Origin: Acidobacteria bacterium RIFCSPLOWO2_02_FULL_65_29
GTDB taxonomy: Bacteria; Acidobacteriota; Vicinamibacteria; Vicinamibacterales; CAVVIG01
Assembly (NCBI GenBank): GCA_001767435.1
Contig: MEKT01000016.1
Location: forward strand, 31,870-77,753
Direction of reading: 5' to 3'
Length of the DNA: 45,884 bases
In this document: in pieces, positions 5,708-45,759 of the stretch
How positions within the stretch are numbered: the stretch's first letter is position 1
How the letters are laid out: every line of letters begins with the position of its first letter
Program-made: the position numbers and the translations under genes
The notes under the pieces: model-generated
What the model was told of the DNA's origin: nothing
Database searches by the model: none
What the model saw: only the letters and a program-made list of their open reading frames with translations

Positions 5708-5804
5708 CAGTCAACAGTTCACAGTCGACAGTTGACAGTGCTCTTAACTGTTCAATTAACTGTTAACTGTTAACTGTTAACTATCGGCTATCGACTGTCG
5801 GCTC
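5708..5804. repeat. Heptamer tandem array with direct and inverted arms (CAGTYNA type)
   Basis: The left arm reads in 7-base steps: CAGTCAA, CAGTTCA, CAGTCGA, CAGTTGA. The right arm is the inverted form: TTAACTG, a 5-base TTCAA, TTAACTG three times, TTAACTA, TCGGCTA, TCGACTG. The two arms are near-complementary and could form a hairpin between the nucleotidyltransferase stop and the phosphomannomutase start. The same units recur at 20529, 24500, 39933 and 41981. Confidence 0.85.
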
Positions 5805-8516: not shown

Positions 8517-11500
8517 TTAGCGGACGGTCACGCGCACACTTTGCGCCGCGTCGAACGCGCCCGTAGACGCCCGGTGAGCGTAGACGACCACGTCGTAGGT
8601 CCCGGGCGGCAACCCGCTGGCTACCAAGTTGAACGACGATCGCCCAAACTGCTGACCATAGGTCGCCGCAACGTCAGGCCGCGAATCGACGGAATCAGCC
8701 ACACCAAGGAAGATCGGCCCTCGACCTTGCTCGGGCCGACCCTGAGCTTGCCGTCCCTCGACGAGGCTCGGGACAGCCTTGAGGCCCTCGAAAGGCCGAA
8801 GGGTCGGATCACCGCCCGCAGCCGGATACGCCCACACGTGGACGGTGTCGATCCCGGCTCCGTCCGTCGCTGCGAGATCGAGCGCCCACCCGGCCACGGT
8901 GAATGGCTGTTGCACGATCGCGGCGCTCGACGGCATGTCGATCGCCATCCGCATCGATGGCAGAACCACGACGCGCACCTTCGTCTCGGCGCCGCCAGCG
9001 GTGAACATCAGATCGAAGCTGCCAAGGAAGCCCGCAGCCGGCTGCCAGTACAAGGTCCCGGCCTCTGCATCGAGCGACGAGCCGAGCGGCAACGCTCGCT
9101 GCTCGCCGTTCACGACCTGCGCGCCGGAGTACACGGCATCGTCCAACGCGGGCAATCGCACCTCGATCCGCTCGCTCTGCTCGATCGCCACCACGTGGAC
9201 GCCGGCGGCGTCCGGCGGAATGTCCATCCACTCGCCGATGGTCCGCCGCACTGCCGGTACGGCAGGACTCAAGTCCTGCACTACATCTCGCGCTACCTGA
9301 GGTGCCCCCGTCGGTACGGCAGGACTAGAGTCGTGCACTACATGCGGCGCGACCTGAGCTGCCCCTGCCGGGGCGGCAGGACCAGAGTCCTGCGCGACGC
9401 GAGGCGCATCCGCCGGCAGCGGATCCCGAGCCCCGAGTCCCAAATCCCGAGCCCCGAGTCCCGAGTCCCCGCTGCTCCCGTTCAACACCGTGAAGAACCG
9501 GCTGCCGATGCCATCCGCGCGCCCGCAGCTGTCGACGACGTACCAGCCGATCTGATGCACACCGTTGGTCATCGTCGTCGTGTCGACCAGGTAATGGCCG
9601 CCGCCACTGCTCCCGTTCGAGAAGCCCGGAAAGAACCCCGCAATGTCGGTCCGGTTGTCCCCGTAGTCCACCGTCGCCAGCGCCCCTGAGTCGATCCCCG
9701 CAAACACGTTGCCGTTCGTGATCGTACAGGTGCGCCCGTCGATAAGGTTCGCGTTCGGCGTCAATGCCCACCCGAAGTTGAAGAACAACGCCGATTTCGT
9801 CTCCCCATACGCCGGCACGTCGAGCGCGCCGAACGGCTTGGTCGCGTTCGCGTTGTCGGCCGTCACGGTCTTCGTCCCCAGCGTGGTCGCGTTCCCTTCC
9901 TGGTCGAACGCGAACGCATGCAACGTGACCGCGCCATTCCCCTGATTCCAGAGCCCCCACGTCAGCAGCAGATACCCCCACCCCGCCCGGTTCGCAAACG
10001 GATGGGTTGGAAACGCCGCCTCGACATCGGGCCGGGACCCGGCCACGAACAGCGGCGTCGCAATGTACACCTTGCCATGGCCGGGATGTCCCGGCGCGTT
10101 GAACGGCACCGTCGTTTCCCCGGCCACCAGATCGCGCCAGATCTCGACGCGGTCGATCGCGATATCGTCGAGCGCCCACCCGGTCACCGCGATCGAGCCC
10201 TGCACCACACCGGCGGCCGGCGTATCGAACGACCCGAATGGCGCGGTGGTCGATCCGGGCGCGCTCACCGTGACCGTGACCGGCAGTCTGATCGGCGAGT
10301 TGCTCGCGGTCGCCGCCGTCACCGTGATCGTCGCGCTCAGCGCCGTGCTGGCGCCGATCACGTTGCTCGGATTGACGAGGGACACCGTGAACTGGCCGTT
10401 CCCGGACGCTGAGCTGCTCGTGATCTGGACCCAGGTCTGATCTGCGCTGGCGGTCCACGCACTCGCCGCTCCTGCAAACGTCACCGTCACCACCTGCGCA
10501 GACGTCACCGTCGTGAACGTGCTCGACGCCGCTGTCTTCGTCGCGGCGAAACGCAACGCGGTTGGGGTCAGACTCGCCGGTCCATACACGGTCAACGTGG
10601 CTACGCTACTCGTCACGGAGGCGGCGCTGTTGGTCGCGACGCACCGATACTGGTACGCGTTCAGCCCCGCGGTGGAGCTCGTCAGAGTCAGCGTTGCCGA
10701 AGTCACACCACTGTACGTGCCGTTGGTCAAGTCGGCCCACGACGTCCCACCGTTGGTCGACACCTGCCATTGATACGTCGGCGTCGGATTTCCGCTGGCC
10801 CCGACCGTCAACTGGGCGTTCTGTCCCGCCGTCACCGTCTGGTTCGCCGGCTGTGTCGTTATCGCGGGTCCCACGTTGACGGTCAGCGTTGCTGCTGCGC
10901 TCGTCGCCGTCCCCACGCTGTTGGTCGCCACTGCGCGGTACTGATTCCCGTGCTGGCTCGCCGTCACAGCCGTCATTATCAGGGTCGTCGTCGTCGCCCC
11001 GCTGTAAGGCGCCGTGTTCGTCAGGTCGGCCCATGACGTCCCACCGTTGGTCGACACCTGCCACTGATACGTCGGCGTCGGATTTCCGCTCGCGACCACG
11101 ATCAGCGTGGCGTTTGCACCCGCCGACGCCGCCTGGTCCGCGGGCTGCATCGTGATCGTGGGCGTCGTGTCTATTGCCAACGTGGCCGCGATTTCCAGAT
11201 GATTGGCGGCTCCGGTCACATCGCGATTGAGCGTGATCCACAGTTCACTCGCCGCCGGGCGAAGCGATGCGAAGTAGTCCACGTCCGCCACGAGCGTCGC
11301 GCCGCCCATCTTCACCGTGGGATAGTCGGCCGTGTAGTTGCTGACGATCATCAGCGGCTTCTTGAGCGTTCCCGCACCGACCGCGATGTCGAGATCGAGA
11401 CGATTGCCGCTGGCGTCGAACGCCAACGCGCCATAGACGTGGTTGTATCCTGCCGGCGAGTAGGTCACGGCGTCCGCGCGGGTCACGCCGGCGGCCCCGC

Positions 11501-13160
11501 CGGTCTTGACCGATCCGATCAGGATCGAGTCAAACGTCACCGACTGGACGGTCTCCACTTGCGTCACCTGCGCCTCGACCGGACCGCTGGTGTGCGTGCC
11601 CAGAACGATGTAGGTGGAATAGCTCTTTTTCGGATAGCCCGGTGCCGTCGCCACGACGCCGTCGTTCACGGTGTAGGTGGTCTGGCCGAGAAAGCCGAAT
11701 TGCGTTTTCCAGGTCAGGCGCGCATTGTTCGATCCGGCGGCGGCGCCGAGCGAGTTGGCGTTGGCCTGGTACGGCCAGTCGTTCGCGCACGGCATCTTGA
11801 GGGCGACACAGGCGTTACCCGCCACCGACGTCGTGCCCCAGAACACGTGGACATCCGTTCCGACAGCCGCGTCGCGACCGCCGGCGGCGTCCTGCTGGCT
11901 CATGGTCTGCGTCTGCACGATGCCCATCGTTGCATCGAGTGTGTTGGTCCCGCTCAGAGGCCCCGTCAGCCACTCTTTGACATAGGGCACGGTGTTCGCT
12001 GCGGTCCAGTCCCACGTGCTGTTGAGCGTGGCCGGCGCAGACGTGGTCGTGAACTTGAACCTGTCGCCCCAGGCCACACCGCCGATGGCGGTGAATCCCT
12101 CGCCATCGATGGCCAACTCGCCATACGGCGCGCGCGAATCGTCCCAGAATGTATTCGCGGGCGCGGCGGGCGAGGCGAGGTCGATGTCGTAGGTAATCGC
12201 CCACAAGGGGTTGTCGTGACCCGTCGTGAACACCCAGTCGATGGTCACGGGCAGCGTCCGCGCGACGGGCGAGGCGCTCGTGTCGCAGTTGCGCGGGTAG
12301 TTCTGGCGGAAACGGAAGATGGCGTGATGCCGGCCCTCGAACACCCGCTCGAAACCGTTGCCGGGCGCGAACCCGGTCAGCCCGGCGACCCGTTGGGCGC
12401 CGTTCGGCAGCTGATAGCGAAACTCGCGCAGCGACCCTCCGCGGCCGCCACCCGGCCCAACCTGCCCGTTGTTGTGCGCCAGCGACGCCACCCTCGGCTG
12501 GCCGCTGCTGTCTACCCACGTGAAGCGATCGCTGGCCATCGAGACGACCATCACCCCGTGCTCGATCTGCATCGTGTTCGCAGGCCCTTGAGGCGCAGGC
12601 GGGATGAGAACGACGTCATCGATGTAGAGCACGCCCTGCAGACCGTCGATGTCGCTCTGGAGGTCGATGCGATCGAACGTGCCGGAGTACGACAGCGGCG
12701 CACTCCCCAATGTGATTGTGACTTCGCGCCAGACGCCGGCCGCCAACGCGCCGCCGGCAATGTAGGTGTCGAGCTCGGCGTTCGCCACGTCGATCCCGCC
12801 GTTCTGCAGGTGCACCCGGAGCTGTTGGCTGCCCACCGCGCCGCCGTGGACCCAGAACCGGAGCGTCGGGTACTGCGCAGTCGTCACCGGCGTCGCGGGA
12901 CGGGCGAAAGACACGGCGTTATAGGCGTTGCCGGTGAATGCGATCGACTTGGTACCGTCGTGCACCTGTGCAGTGCTGGCAAAATCGGGAGGCGCCCCAT
13001 ACGAGTAATCCAGAAACCCGTTCTGCAGTGCGTCGTCGTAGATCGTGAGGTTCTGCGCCAGCGCGTCCCCGGCCACTAGCAGCGCGAGCACACACAGTAA
13101 CGGTGCGCGCAAAGACCGCCTGCCGGTGGATTCGGGATCCGCAGTGACGATCTCATTCAT
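8517..13160 (-). CDS. Very large secreted multidomain protein (Ig-like, BACON and GWALDD modules)
   Basis: A 1547-residue exported protein. Residues 1-36 form a signal peptide ending in DALAQ. A jelly-roll carbohydrate-binding-like domain follows (about 40-190), then a large uncharacterised beta-rich region. Two near-identical Ig-like repeats lie at about 662-858 (both containing the phrase PTPTYQWQVSTNGGTSWADL), followed by a BACON-like domain (about 860-970). Two GWALD modules follow (GWALDDIAIDRVEIWRD near 1000 and VAGWALDLAATDGAG near 1420), typical of acidobacterial surface proteins. Linkers at about 1232-1307 and 1453-1482 are translated from dispersed DNA repeats. No catalytic motif is seen, so adhesion or glycan binding is the likely role. 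The start lacks a clear ribosome-binding site but fits the signal peptide. Confidence 0.88.
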   Translation of the reverse strand: MNEIVTADPESTGRRSLRAPLLCVLALLVAGDALAQNLTIYDDALQNGFLDYSYGAPPDFASTAQVHDGTKSIAFTGNAYNAVSFARPATPVTTAQYPTLRFWVHGGAVGSQQLRVHLQNGGIDVANAELDTYIAGGALAAGVWREVTITLGSAPLSYSGTFDRIDLQSDIDGLQGVLYIDDVVLIPPAPQGPANTMQIEHGVMVVSMASDRFTWVDSSGQPRVASLAHNNGQVGPGGGRGGSLREFRYQLPNGAQRVAGLTGFAPGNGFERVFEGRHHAIFRFRQNYPRNCDTSASPVARTLPVTIDWVFTTGHDNPLWAITYDIDLASPAAPANTFWDDSRAPYGELAIDGEGFTAIGGVAWGDRFKFTTTSAPATLNSTWDWTAANTVPYVKEWLTGPLSGTNTLDATMGIVQTQTMSQQDAAGGRDAAVGTDVHVFWGTTSVAGNACVALKMPCANDWPYQANANSLGAAAGSNNARLTWKTQFGFLGQTTYTVNDGVVATAPGYPKKSYSTYIVLGTHTSGPVEAQVTQVETVQSVTFDSILIGSVKTGGAAGVTRADAVTYSPAGYNHVYGALAFDASGNRLDLDIAVGAGTLKKPLMIVSNYTADYPTVKMGGATLVADVDYFASLRPAASELWITLNRDVTGAANHLEIAATLAIDTTPTITMQPADQAASAGANATLIVVASGNPTPTYQWQVSTNGGTSWADLTNTAPYSGATTTTLIMTAVTASQHGNQYRAVATNSVGTATSAAATLTVNVGPAITTQPANQTVTAGQNAQLTVGASGNPTPTYQWQVSTNGGTSWADLTNGTYSGVTSATLTLTSSTAGLNAYQYRCVATNSAASVTSSVATLTVYGPASLTPTALRFAATKTAASSTFTTVTSAQVVTVTFAGAASAWTASADQTWVQITSSSASGNGQFTVSLVNPSNVIGASTALSATITVTAATASNSPIRLPVTVTVSAPGSTTAPFGSFDTPAAGVVQGSIAVTGWALDDIAIDRVEIWRDLVAGETTVPFNAPGHPGHGKVYIATPLFVAGSRPDVEAAFPTHPFANRAGWGYLLLTWGLWNQGNGAVTLHAFAFDQEGNATTLGTKTVTADNANATKPFGALDVPAYGETKSALFFNFGWALTPNANLIDGRTCTITNGNVFAGIDSGALATVDYGDNRTDIAGFFPGFSNGSSGGGHYLVDTTTMTNGVHQIGWYVVDSCGRADGIGSRFFTVLNGSSGDSGLGARDLGLGARDPLPADAPRVAQDSGPAAPAGAAQVAPHVVHDSSPAVPTGAPQVARDVVQDLSPAVPAVRRTIGEWMDIPPDAAGVHVVAIEQSERIEVRLPALDDAVYSGAQVVNGEQRALPLGSSLDAEAGTLYWQPAAGFLGSFDLMFTAGGAETKVRVVVLPSMRMAIDMPSSAAIVQQPFTVAGWALDLAATDGAGIDTVHVWAYPAAGGDPTLRPFEGLKAVPSLVEGRQAQGRPEQGRGPIFLGVADSVDSRPDVAATYGQQFGRSSFNLVASGLPPGTYDVVVYAHRASTGAFDAAQSVRVTVR
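8716..8800. repeat. TCGAC-type dispersed repeat inside the large secreted-protein gene
   Basis: The segment contains CCCTCGACCTTGCTCGGG, CCCTGAGCTTGCCGTCCC and TCGACGAGGCTCGGGACAG, the same building blocks as the intergenic repeat at 7525 and 21492-21654. It is translated in frame as a low-complexity insert (LKAVPSLVEGRQAQGRPEQG) within the last GWALD module. Confidence 0.75.
9262..9393. repeat. Three 57-bp tandem units centred on a GGACTnnAGTCC palindrome, in coding sequence
   Basis: Palindromes at 9262-9279 (GCAGGACTCAAGTCCTGC), 9319-9336 and 9376-9393 are spaced exactly 57 bases apart. Fifty-seven bases are 19 codons, so the reading frame is kept. They encode the repeated linker units VQDLSPAVPAV, VHDSSPAVPTGAPQ and AQDSGPAAPAGAAQ. 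The same palindrome followed by ACTACA occurs between genes at 39197-39214. Confidence 0.9.
9426..9467. repeat. CCGAGYC heptamer array in coding sequence
   Basis: Six consecutive 7-base units: CCGAGCC, CCGAGTC, CCAAATC, CCGAGCC, CCGAGTC, CCGAGTC. Forty-two bases equal 14 codons, so the frame is preserved and the protein shows the heptad repeat SGLGARD/LGLGARD. The same units open the array at 40872. Confidence 0.85.
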
Positions 13161-13783: not shown

Positions 13784-14935
<1,152 letters not shown>

Positions 14936-22992: not shown

Positions 22993-23001
22993 AAGCTGAG
23001 G

Positions 23002-23036
23002 CCCTCTGCCCTTTGCCCTTTGCCCTTTGCCCTTTG
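23002..23036. repeat. CCCTTTG heptamer array
   Basis: Five contiguous units: CCCTCTG followed by four perfect CCCTTTG. It lies ten bases after the hpt stop and just before the end of the convergent amidohydrolase gene. Confidence 0.9.
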
Positions 23037-23046
23037 CAATTCCAGC

Positions 23047-38204: not shown

Positions 38205-38456
38205 CGCGCCGCGCTGCCGCGAGCCGCGCCGTGCCCCTCTGCTTTCAGAGATGTGGTGCGACCGCAGGTTCTTGAGCGCGCGAGCGCAGACCGCCCTGTC
38301 GCTCGGGCCGGGTCGCGGCTGGCCAGGCACACCGCCACCAGCGCCGCGTTTGTGCTCCCTCCAGGCATGTTCGGAGCGAGCCACCCCGCCGGACCGGCAG
38401 GGCGCTCTTGTGCGAGCGGCCCGTGCCAAGCTTCTTGCCGGGCAGCGACGGGCGTA
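38205..38456 (+). ncRNA. Candidate structured non-coding RNA, about 250 nt (or long structured leader)
   Basis: CGCTGCC (38212-38218) pairs with GGCAGCG (38441-38447); the helix extends outward with two one-base bulges (GCC with CGG, then GCG with CGU) to 38206 and 38455, so the predicted transcription start coincides with the 5' end of the closing stem. Inside are a hairpin CTCTG-CTTT-CAGAG (38237-38250), GCGACC (38258-38263) with GGTCGC (38311-38316), and GGCAC (38326-38330) with GTGCC (38423-38427). There is no open frame with protein character. A closed long hairpin with its own strong promoter recalls 6S RNA, but the length is above the usual 180-200 nt and no conserved motif was recognised. 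It may instead be the leader of the hydrolase mRNA. Confidence 0.45.
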
Positions 38457-38471
38457 GTAACGTGCCGGCTC

Positions 38472-39206
38472 ATGGAGCGGCGCGCATTCCTGACGCTGGG
38501 CGCGGCGAGCGCTGTTGGCTGGCTGCACGAGACGCTGAACGCCGAGGCCCGCGCGCAGAGCGAGCTCCCCTTCGGAGAAAGTCGCCTCGGCCTATCAGAC
38601 GATGGCCGCGACGGCTCGCTGTACGTGCCAAAGGGGTACCGAGCCGGCGTGCCGATGCCCCTCCTCATGATGCTGCACGGCCTTGGAGGGTCGGCGCAAG
38701 GCGTCCGCTACACCTTCCCGCTCGCCGACCAGTTCGGCGTCATCGTGATCGCTCCTGAATCCCGCGGTCTGACCTGGGGCCAATCCGCGCCAGGCTTCGA
38801 CGCCGACGTTCGGTATCTCGGCGCGGCTTACCGGCACGTCACCGGCTTGCTGGATGTGGATCGCGCGCACGTTGCGCTCGGCGGCCACTCCGATGGCGCG
38901 GGCTACGCGCTTGGGATGGGCCTCGCGTACGGCGACGTCTTTAATCACCTGATGGTGTTCTCGGCTGGTATGATGACGCCGTTCAGGAAGCAGGGAAAGC
39001 CGCGGATCTTCATCGCGCACGGCGTCGACGACAACCAGATGCCCATTGAGAGGACCAGCCGGAAGTTCGTTCCGCGGCTGAAAGCTGAGGGCTATGACGT
39101 GACGTATCGCGAGTACGACGGCGGCCACGGAGTGAAGGTGCCGGTCGTTCGCGAGGCGTTCGAGTGGCTTCTCGCGGGAGATGAGCGCCGCGGCAGGCAG
39201 GACTGA
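38472..39206 (+). CDS. Exported alpha/beta-hydrolase (esterase/PHB-depolymerase-like)
   Basis: 244 residues from ATG at 38472; the frame further upstream lies in the structured non-coding segment and lacks protein character. The N-terminus MERRAFLTLGAASAVGWLHE has a twin-Arg pattern suggesting Tat export. Core motifs are PLLMMLHGLGGSAQ (oxyanion hole), VALGGHSDGAGYALGMGLAY (nucleophile Ser in GHSDG), a late Asp in HGVDDNQMP and the His in YDGGHGVKVP. Substrate unknown. The stop TGA sits in the loop of a palindrome (39197-39214). Confidence 0.85.
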   Translation: MERRAFLTLGAASAVGWLHETLNAEARAQSELPFGESRLGLSDDGRDGSLYVPKGYRAGVPMPLLMMLHGLGGSAQGVRYTFPLADQFGVIVIAPESRGLTWGQSAPGFDADVRYLGAAYRHVTGLLDVDRAHVALGGHSDGAGYALGMGLAYGDVFNHLMVFSAGMMTPFRKQGKPRIFIAHGVDDNQMPIERTSRKFVPRLKAEGYDVTYREYDGGHGVKVPVVREAFEWLLAGDERRGRQD

Positions 39207-39283
39207 AGTCCTGCACTACACGGCGGGCGTAGAGCGATCTAGGCGTCTGCGCGGCAGAATGTCGTGCGGGTCTTCAGACCCGC
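39197..39283. repeat. Two 8-2-8 palindromes between convergent genes
   Basis: GCAGGACT GA AGTCCTGC at 39197-39214 holds the stop of the hydrolase gene in its loop (TGA 39204-39206). GCGGGTCT TC AGACCCGC at 39266-39283 abuts the TAG of the minus-strand gene (39284-39286). Both have the same 8-2-8 layout and may act as bidirectional terminators. The first, with its ACTACA tail, is the same as the palindromes inside the large gene at 9262. Confidence 0.7.
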
Positions 39284-39823
39284 CTAGCCCTTCTTCAGTT
39301 GCGCAAGGAGCGCGGCGAGCATCTGGCTGTAACGCTCGTCAGCAGCGGCGTGAATCTTCATGTACTCCGGCTCGGTGATCTGCTGCTTCCGCCATTCGTT
39401 GTCGAACATGGTGCGCTTGCCAGACGTCTCAACCGCGTCGAACCCCTGGTTGTCTTCTTTCTTGGCCCGCAAGCCGTCCATCCCGAGGTCTTCCACGAAT
39501 ACCTTCGTGCCAGGGCTCGCCGAGCTCTGCAGGTCGATGTAGACCTCGCGGTACTCTTTCTTGCCAATGCGGGCGTCGAGCAGCTGCGGCGCCGAGTATT
39601 TGGCCCCAATCGTCAGGAGCTGGAAGCCGGGGATGTAAAGGACGGCGATGAAGGTGTCGGCGCCCGCGGGATCCTTGGTGGCGATGGTGTCGAGCTTGGC
39701 GGCGGTGAGTGCGGCCGCCAACTCCTTGGCCAGGGCCGCCGACTTGGGCTCCTGCGCGTACGCGCCACCAGACCATCCGATCACGCACAGCGCGACCAGC
39801 GCTTCTCGAGCCAGTACCTTCAT
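39284..39823 (-). CDS. Secreted protein of unknown function
   Basis: A 179-residue exported protein; GGGGAGGG precedes the ATG by a few bases. The signal peptide is MKVLAREALVALCVIGWSGG, cleaved near AYAQ. The mature domain is mixed alpha/beta: ALAKELAAALTAAKLDTIAT, DTFIAVLYIPGFQLLTIGAK and REVYIDLQSSASPGTKVFVE, then a charged helical tail (DNEWRKQQITEPEYMKIHAA). Several acidobacterial genomes seem to carry similar proteins, but no family name is recalled. It is convergent with the hydrolase gene and stands alone. Confidence 0.8.
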   Translation of the reverse strand: MKVLAREALVALCVIGWSGGAYAQEPKSAALAKELAAALTAAKLDTIATKDPAGADTFIAVLYIPGFQLLTIGAKYSAPQLLDARIGKKEYREVYIDLQSSASPGTKVFVEDLGMDGLRAKKEDNQGFDAVETSGKRTMFDNEWRKQQITEPEYMKIHAAADERYSQMLAALLAQLKKG

Positions 39824-40871: not shown

Positions 40872-40927
40872 CCGAGTCCCGAGCCCCTAGCCCCTAGCCC
40901 CTAGCCTCTAGCCTCTAGCCTCTAAAA
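40872..40927. repeat. CCGAGTC/CCTAGCC heptamer array
   Basis: Eight units: CCGAGTC, CCGAGCC, CCTAGCC three times, TCTAGCC twice, TCTAAAA. The mlaD TAG stop (40922-40924) lies in the last unit. It joins the CCGAGYC units seen at 9426 with the CTAGGGG units at 45726. Confidence 0.9.
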
Positions 40928-41962: not shown

Positions 41963-41980
41963 AACTGGCGCCTCACTTCA

Positions 41981-42057
41981 GAGTCAACAGTTCACAGTCA
42001 ACAGTCAACAGTTCACAGTTGGCAGTCTGTCAGCTGTCGACTGTGGACTGTCGACTT
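41981..42057. repeat. Heptamer array with direct and inverted arms (CAGTYNA type)
   Basis: GAGTCAA, CAGTTCA, CAGTCAA twice, CAGTTCA, CAGTTGG, then after a spacer the inverted TCGACTG, TGGACTG, TCGACTT. It lies between mlaF and mlaD; the last unit is immediately followed by the mlaF stop (42058-42060). Confidence 0.85.
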
Positions 42058-45725: not shown

Positions 45726-45759
45726 CTAGAGGCTAGGGGCTAGGGCTAGGGGCTAGGGA
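45726..45759. repeat. CTAGGGG heptamer array
   Basis: Units CTAGAGG, CTAGGGG, a 6-base CTAGGG, CTAGGGG, CTAGGGA; the reverse complement of the CCCCTAG units at 40872. It lies just upstream of uvrB. Confidence 0.85.

Follow-up and report, generated by a model that had tools for sequence, protein, structure and literature searches.

The Pro/Ala-rich linker of a secreted modular protein of Acidobacteria bacterium RIFCSPLOWO2_02_FULL_65_29 is very probably a captured palindrome. In this explanation, which was derived from comparison of DNA sequences, a GTAG REP would have been captured in the linker with the frame kept, tandemly duplicated, and then tolerated as a translated spacer. The initial annotation of the window (the whole analysed stretch of 45,884 nucleotides) had proposed capture of a dispersed palindrome followed by frame-kept duplication, giving a Pro/Ala linker between modules, and both the dispersal of the element and the comparison of paralogues support this proposal. 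The case resolves clearly how mobile palindromic DNA can become protein, and its paralogues serve as a before/after comparison.

Palindrome copies and the host gene

The host protein carries a signal-like stretch at its N-terminus, two Ig-like domains (two stretches matching Pfam Ig_3/I-set) and conserved C-terminal modules. The linker is located between a module ending in RFFTVLNG and a module starting with RRTIGEW. Its codons fit the coding usage of the own genome poorly: under a model derived from the ORFs in the fetched DNA, the linker scores -0.347, as compared to +0.379 upstream and +0.177 downstream. The features are collected in Table 1.

A scan of the window for the motif GCAGGACTNNAGTCCTGC, allowing at most two mismatches, gave four matches, whereas shuffled windows contained 0.01 matches on average and none of 100 reached four. 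The matches at 9262 and 39197 are exact; those at 9319 and 9376 have one mismatch each, so that the identity initially claimed for the three palindromes in the gene holds only for the one at 9262. The in-gene copies are 23-base elements on the minus strand that start with GTAG or a decayed GTAG, all in codon phase 0. Read in the direction of the gene they are GTAGTGCAGGACTTGAGTCCTGC (VVQDLSPA), GTAGTGCACGACTCTAGTCCTGC (VVHDSSPA) and GTCGCGCAGGACTCTGGTCCTGC (VAQDSGPA). Their 57-base spacing inside the 1547-residue gene, as annotated, was recovered by the motif scan, the ORF listing and Tandem Repeats Finder, which reported a period of 57 bases at 9253-9393. The fourth copy does have the same sequence with an ACTACA tail, but the description of its site as intergenic needs amendment. 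It overlaps the 3' end of an ORF on the plus strand (38253-39206) and supplies its TGA stop codon (39204-39206), so the location is not cleanly intergenic. The ORF listed next is convergent (39284-39823, minus strand).

Table 1. Positions in the window of the host gene, its linker and the palindromic elements.
Feature	Position	Strand	Basis
Host gene, 1547-residue protein	8517-13160	-	ORF listing and translation
Repeat-derived linker, residues 1228-1304	9249-9479	-	Paralogue alignment, codon score
REP copy 1 in protein order, VAQDSGPA, degenerate tag GTCG	9376-9398	-	Motif match, translation
REP copy 2 in protein order, VVHDSSPA, GTAG tag retained	9319-9341	-	Motif match, translation
REP copy 3 in protein order, VVQDLSPA, exact palindrome with GTAG tag	9262-9284	-	Motif match, translation
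Period-7/21 tandem repeat of CCCGAGT type, second repeat type in the linker, translated DSGLGARDLGLGARD	9423-9471	-	Tandem Repeats Finder, translation
REP copy outside the host gene, GTAGTGCAGGACTTCAGTCCTGC	39197-39219	-	Motif match, ORF listing
Second, related palindrome GCGGGTCTTCAGACCCGC, 69 bases beyond the 39197 copy (cluster C16:71066)	39266-39283		Cluster gap of 69, sequence

The element as a GTAG REP

GTAG-tagged REP elements of the form GTAGTGCAGGACTTCAGTCCTGC, translated as VVQDFSPA, have this palindrome as their core. Its arms of 8 bases around a centre of 2 bases fit the stem of 5-13 bp of GTAG REPs, the GTAG tag stands 5' of the palindrome, and the elements form inverted and tandem groups like the dimers and clusters of these REPs. 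The tag, the palindrome and the presence of several families per genome agree with the marks of the GTAG REP family in the accessible text of the survey by Di Nocera et al. 2013 (PMC3733652). Folded as single-stranded DNA, the 39197 copy gives a z of -3.09, although its GTAG, a tag that stays unpaired in such REPs, is partly paired here in an extended stem.

In the own genome (a 97.12% complete assembly of 5.5 Mb in 239 contigs) the 18-base core is found at 208 sites with at most two mismatches, against three for a reversed control. The exact form of GTAG, one base and the palindrome (GTAGTGCAGGACTNNAGTCCTGC) has 77 copies; the control has none. In 925 kb of this genome, an open scan for 8-base inverted repeats of any sequence preceded by GTAG returned GCAGGACT as the top result (87 with a 1-base spacer). 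Further families in the same 925 kb were GCAGGTCT (15), GCGGGTCT (6), GTCCGGCT (5), GCGGGACT (4) and GTCCGCCT (2). Of the 77 REP clusters in this part, 71 did not appear to be coding on both flanks when judged by the automatic rule or by inspection. These counts confirm that the rest of the genome is rich in the palindrome, mostly outside coding sequence, as its description as a dispersed element had implied.

With at most one mismatch the GTAG form occurs in 11 of the 60 genomes searched, own genome included, and only G006, with 43 sites, is rich in it besides the own genome. The 60 genomes included no other member of the genus. The matches listed for named genomes are from acidobacterial MAGs, Desulfobacteraceae, Syntrophaceae, Candidatus Euphemobacter, a Dehalococcoidia MAG and an uncultured bacterium. 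The CAKZYZ records (L103, L107, L110 and others) show inverted REP pairs at a constant 32-base offset, on many contigs among the matches listed. This genome is from one uncultured bacterium and has 18 Y1_Tnp and 22 RAYT-family matches.

Exact copies both inside and outside genes are also what one would see if the linker repeat had arisen inside the gene and the intergenic palindromes were derived from the gene copy. We consider this extremely improbable, since most clusters are outside coding sequence and the copies in the window gene are more degenerate, while many copies elsewhere are exact. Moreover, unrelated genes carry the same REP in other frames (GRTEVLHY in an M14 gene), the REP adjoins RAYT genes in other genomes, and the 43 sites of G006 come with no match to the module, in an assembly that is only 66% complete.

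RAYT genes and the mobility of the element

RAYT genes adjoin the REP in G060, G062 and G023 and a variant of the REP in G005 (four of the 30 RAYT loci L254-L283). The own genome gave no match to PF01797 or to NF047646 in its 97.12% complete assembly; three RAYT proteins that were tested exceeded the NF047646 cut-off. The REPs of this genome thus appear orphaned, and the RAYT may have been lost from the genome or be absent from the assembly only. According to Table 1 in the accessible text of PMC3733652, RAYT association characterises the GTAG families collectively. Because the association is given at group level in that survey, a genome lacking RAYT lowers the case for membership among the GTAG REPs but does not exclude it. 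The RAYT gene of G062 itself (L249:1447-2046, a Desulfobacteraceae record) has three REPs of its own family within the reading frame, which is an in-frame capture by the transposase gene.

Comparison of paralogues

A search of the own genome with the 258-residue module that precedes the linker gave six matches. A REP array is present in the linker of two of these six copies, with three REPs in the window gene and five in the C24 paralogue, and the linkers of the four array-less copies are short or different. The array is therefore not a universal part of the linker, which sustains the capture explanation. It counts against this explanation that an exact empty site lacking any linker was not found among the module copies, the other paralogues carrying linkers of their own. 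One C119 copy, which is 87% identical, has GTAGTGTCCGGCTTCAGCCGGA in its linker, and the linker of the C37 copy contains GTCCGCCTACAGGCGGAC without a GTAG tag as well as GTCCGTCTTCAGCCGGAC. In the linkers of the other C119 copy and of C215 no palindrome was seen.

Only one of 59 relatives, G042, which belongs to another family, has the module, with 10 matches. At least two G042 linkers hold in-frame inverted pairs of the GTAGGGGCGC type, in L087 and, more decayed, in L093, and palindromes of this type are found close behind five of the 10 module copies. The different palindromes in the linkers of paralogues and of G042 indicate that one linker has taken up several palindrome families, at least three of them across two bacterial families. 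Within one gene family, a single capture event may underlie several linker copies. The idea that the linker takes whatever repeat is common gets no backing from G042. The linker REP is not abundant there, with one exact site away from module genes in 372,359 sampled bases.

The C24 paralogue also bears on the reliability of the assembly. Short repeats can collapse or expand in a repeat-rich metagenome assembly, here of 239 contigs, and the array could be an artefact of this kind. However, the C24 paralogue has a similar array whose units have diverged, the units in the window differ from each other, and the frame is open on both sides of the window array. An artefact is hardly credible in view of these observations.

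Duplication and constraint

The order of the units is 1-2-3 in the window gene and 1-2-1-2-3 in C24. The copy numbers of three and five, together with the repeated unit types in C24, fit in-frame tandem duplication. Between the window gene and C24, substitutions at codon positions 1/2/3 number 10/5/52 in the upstream module, 6/3/12 in the downstream module and 6/10/7 in the linker. The 23 linker substitutions are spread over 83 codons, with one synonymous and 17 non-synonymous codons, and the linker differs from the upstream module in Fisher tests on position 3 (p 8e-5) and on synonymous codons (p 3e-8). Since the flanks show a third-position bias and the linker shows none, we read the peptide as tolerated and not conserved. 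From these alignments the linker looks like a translated spacer of free sequence, the frame of which is held by the module behind it. Yet the linker diverges more slowly than the third codon positions of the flanks and is thus not plainly neutral; recent homogenisation may have occurred.

Selection of the array for protein function, beyond tolerance, could concern the length or sequence of the 19-residue spacer, for example at the cell surface. The retention of multi-unit arrays in two paralogues, and in an M14 protein just after its signal peptide, would agree with this, as would the different linker lengths of the paralogues. We nevertheless regard such selection as unlikely, because the linker has no synonymous bias between the window gene and C24 and the same linker contains different peptides in other paralogues and in G042. 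A role for hairpins in the mRNA, such as slowing of ribosomes between domains, is less probable still. The linker RNA folds somewhat better than its shuffles (z -2.05; six of 200 fold at least as well), but this is a weak effect. Besides, the best fold does not simply give each REP its own hairpin, and the hairpins are missing from other paralogues.

Spacing was considered as proof of frame selection and rejected. In a tally for which gaps were copied by hand from the cluster scan and arrays were assigned by eye, all four coding arrays had spacings that are multiples of three, but so did eight of 17 non-coding arrays, which makes spacing alone weak evidence of frame selection.

In view of the above, the following sequence of events can be proposed for capture and duplication. 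One or more REP copies would have entered the interdomain linker in the ancestor of the window gene and the C24 paralogue, leaving the frame intact. The insertion, which we infer from the comparison, could have been carried out by a RAYT acting on single-stranded DNA. That no RAYT was found in the own genome counts against this explanation, as the mover is only deduced. The REP with its spacer would then have been tandemly duplicated to 57-bp (19-residue) units, and the order of the units suggests that a further duplication of 102 bp (45+57) took place in C24. A Pro/Ala-rich spacer would be tolerated because of its position between folded modules, and the frame would be retained because the downstream module is under selection, with no sign of selection on the peptide sequence of the spacer itself.

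REPs in other genes

Five of the 77 clusters in the first 925 kb are coding on both sides by the automatic rule, of which C67 is doubtful, and one more (C28) was added by eye. This part was selected for containing REPs, which makes it a non-random sample. Another 520,611 bases held six clusters, one of them coding on both sides; the total read is about a quarter of the genome.

An M14 carboxypeptidase gene (Pfam PF00246) has six 57-bp units after a signal-like stretch, translated as GGRTEVLHYTPGQSAPAGA (GRTEVLHY) in a different frame of the same REP. For comparison, 14 of 30 fetched loci were used (one own, 13 others). Three of the 13 gave no readable N-terminal segment, and the array is missing in all 10 homologues with a readable one. 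A gene with matches to PF17657 and PF14579, the product of which we read as DnaE2 rather than DnaE1, has four REPs in a linker. All 23 relatives read (24 of 30 fetched loci, one own and 23 others) have other, variable linkers. In one of these, L188, the linker contains TGLKARAA, which might be a decayed REP.

A Ser/Thr kinase gene (L308:8773-11568) includes a 51-base inverted REP pair in frame, with a REP core at 10946, after DFGLAKAL in the activation-loop region. In LigD (L075:7426-9579) a GTCCGGCT element stands between the ligase and polymerase domains. ORF L081:8144-9556 joins glyoxalase and metallo-beta-lactamase domains via a REP and period-7 repeats; it may be a true repeat-made gene fusion or a read-through.

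Several other candidates were set aside. In the C67 kinase, a T-family match (GGSKDPH) is probably due to chance. The peptide scan gave matches most of which fall close to the beginning of a stop-to-stop ORF, and these were taken to precede the start codon. The unit length of 57 bp shared by three places (window/C24, C28 and C47) was dismissed as coincidence, since beyond the REP the units do not seem alike.

Relation to known systems

GTAG REPs that lie in frame inside ORFs, singly or grouped, were described by Di Nocera et al. 2013 (PMC3733652), so the window case joins a known kind. In the accessible text of that paper, intragenic clusters encode 43-82 residues in Thauera and R. conorii, hosts include DnaE2 and DNA ligase, and two Xanthomonas species have different REPs at about the same recB site. 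The authors suggest that flexible linkers or loops tolerate intragenic REPs. Compared to these published cases, the host protein here is secreted and modular, with Ig-like domains, and comes from an acidobacterial lineage; the array consists of regular 57-bp tandem units whose number differs between paralogues, and no RAYT was found in the genome.

Other systems share some of these features, as far as the accessible parts of the cited papers describe them. Like the window array, the RPE of Ogata et al. (2000, 2002; via PMC10969869 and PMC3733652) are palindromes in frame in unrelated protein genes. They are about 150 bp long, occur in Rickettsia and are not GTAG REPs of the window family; the window unit measures 57 bp and contains a REP core of 23 bases. 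In PARCEL (PMC2996958), too, palindromic DNA encodes tandem protein repeats of variable number. The PARCEL unit is a 25-residue amphipathic motif disseminated as a coding element, whereas the unit found here, judged by its period, has 19 residues, is Pro/Ala-rich and is derived from a mostly non-coding REP. The REPIN/RAYT systems (PMC3116915, PMC8266576) resemble the present one in their GTAG REPs, inverted pairs and a REP flanking a RAYT gene, but differ in that the REPs of our genome appear orphaned.

No mention of VVQDFSPA and no report of palindrome-to-protein capture in this bacterial group were found in the literature searched. New here are the paralogue comparison, the regular tandem array with its unequal copy numbers, and the finding that several palindrome families use one linker. 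The linkers of the secreted module family could be a recurrent landing site for the REP families of the host, with capture and duplication as a regular route to spacers; we find the arguments for and against such generality about evenly balanced. The case raises the question whether linkers simply tolerate insertions or whether recurrent capture of REPs supplies spacers that can evolve.

Other repeats in the window

A 93-bp in-frame insert at 8715-8807 (PTLRPFEGLKAVPSLVEGRQAQGRPEQGRG) is present in the last module of the host gene. None of the other paralogues that extend this far has it, and it resembles another captured repeat. Repeat-like inserts also occur in the C24 gene, for example SNLVNPPNLANAPNAANALNLVNE. 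Besides the one listed in Table 1, period-7 tandem repeats, of which the window has many, are found at 40872-40924, 41977-42020, 5756-5782, 23001-23037 and 45726-45758. A GGCGGT/GGT tandem repeat of about 14 units occupies positions 14280-14362.
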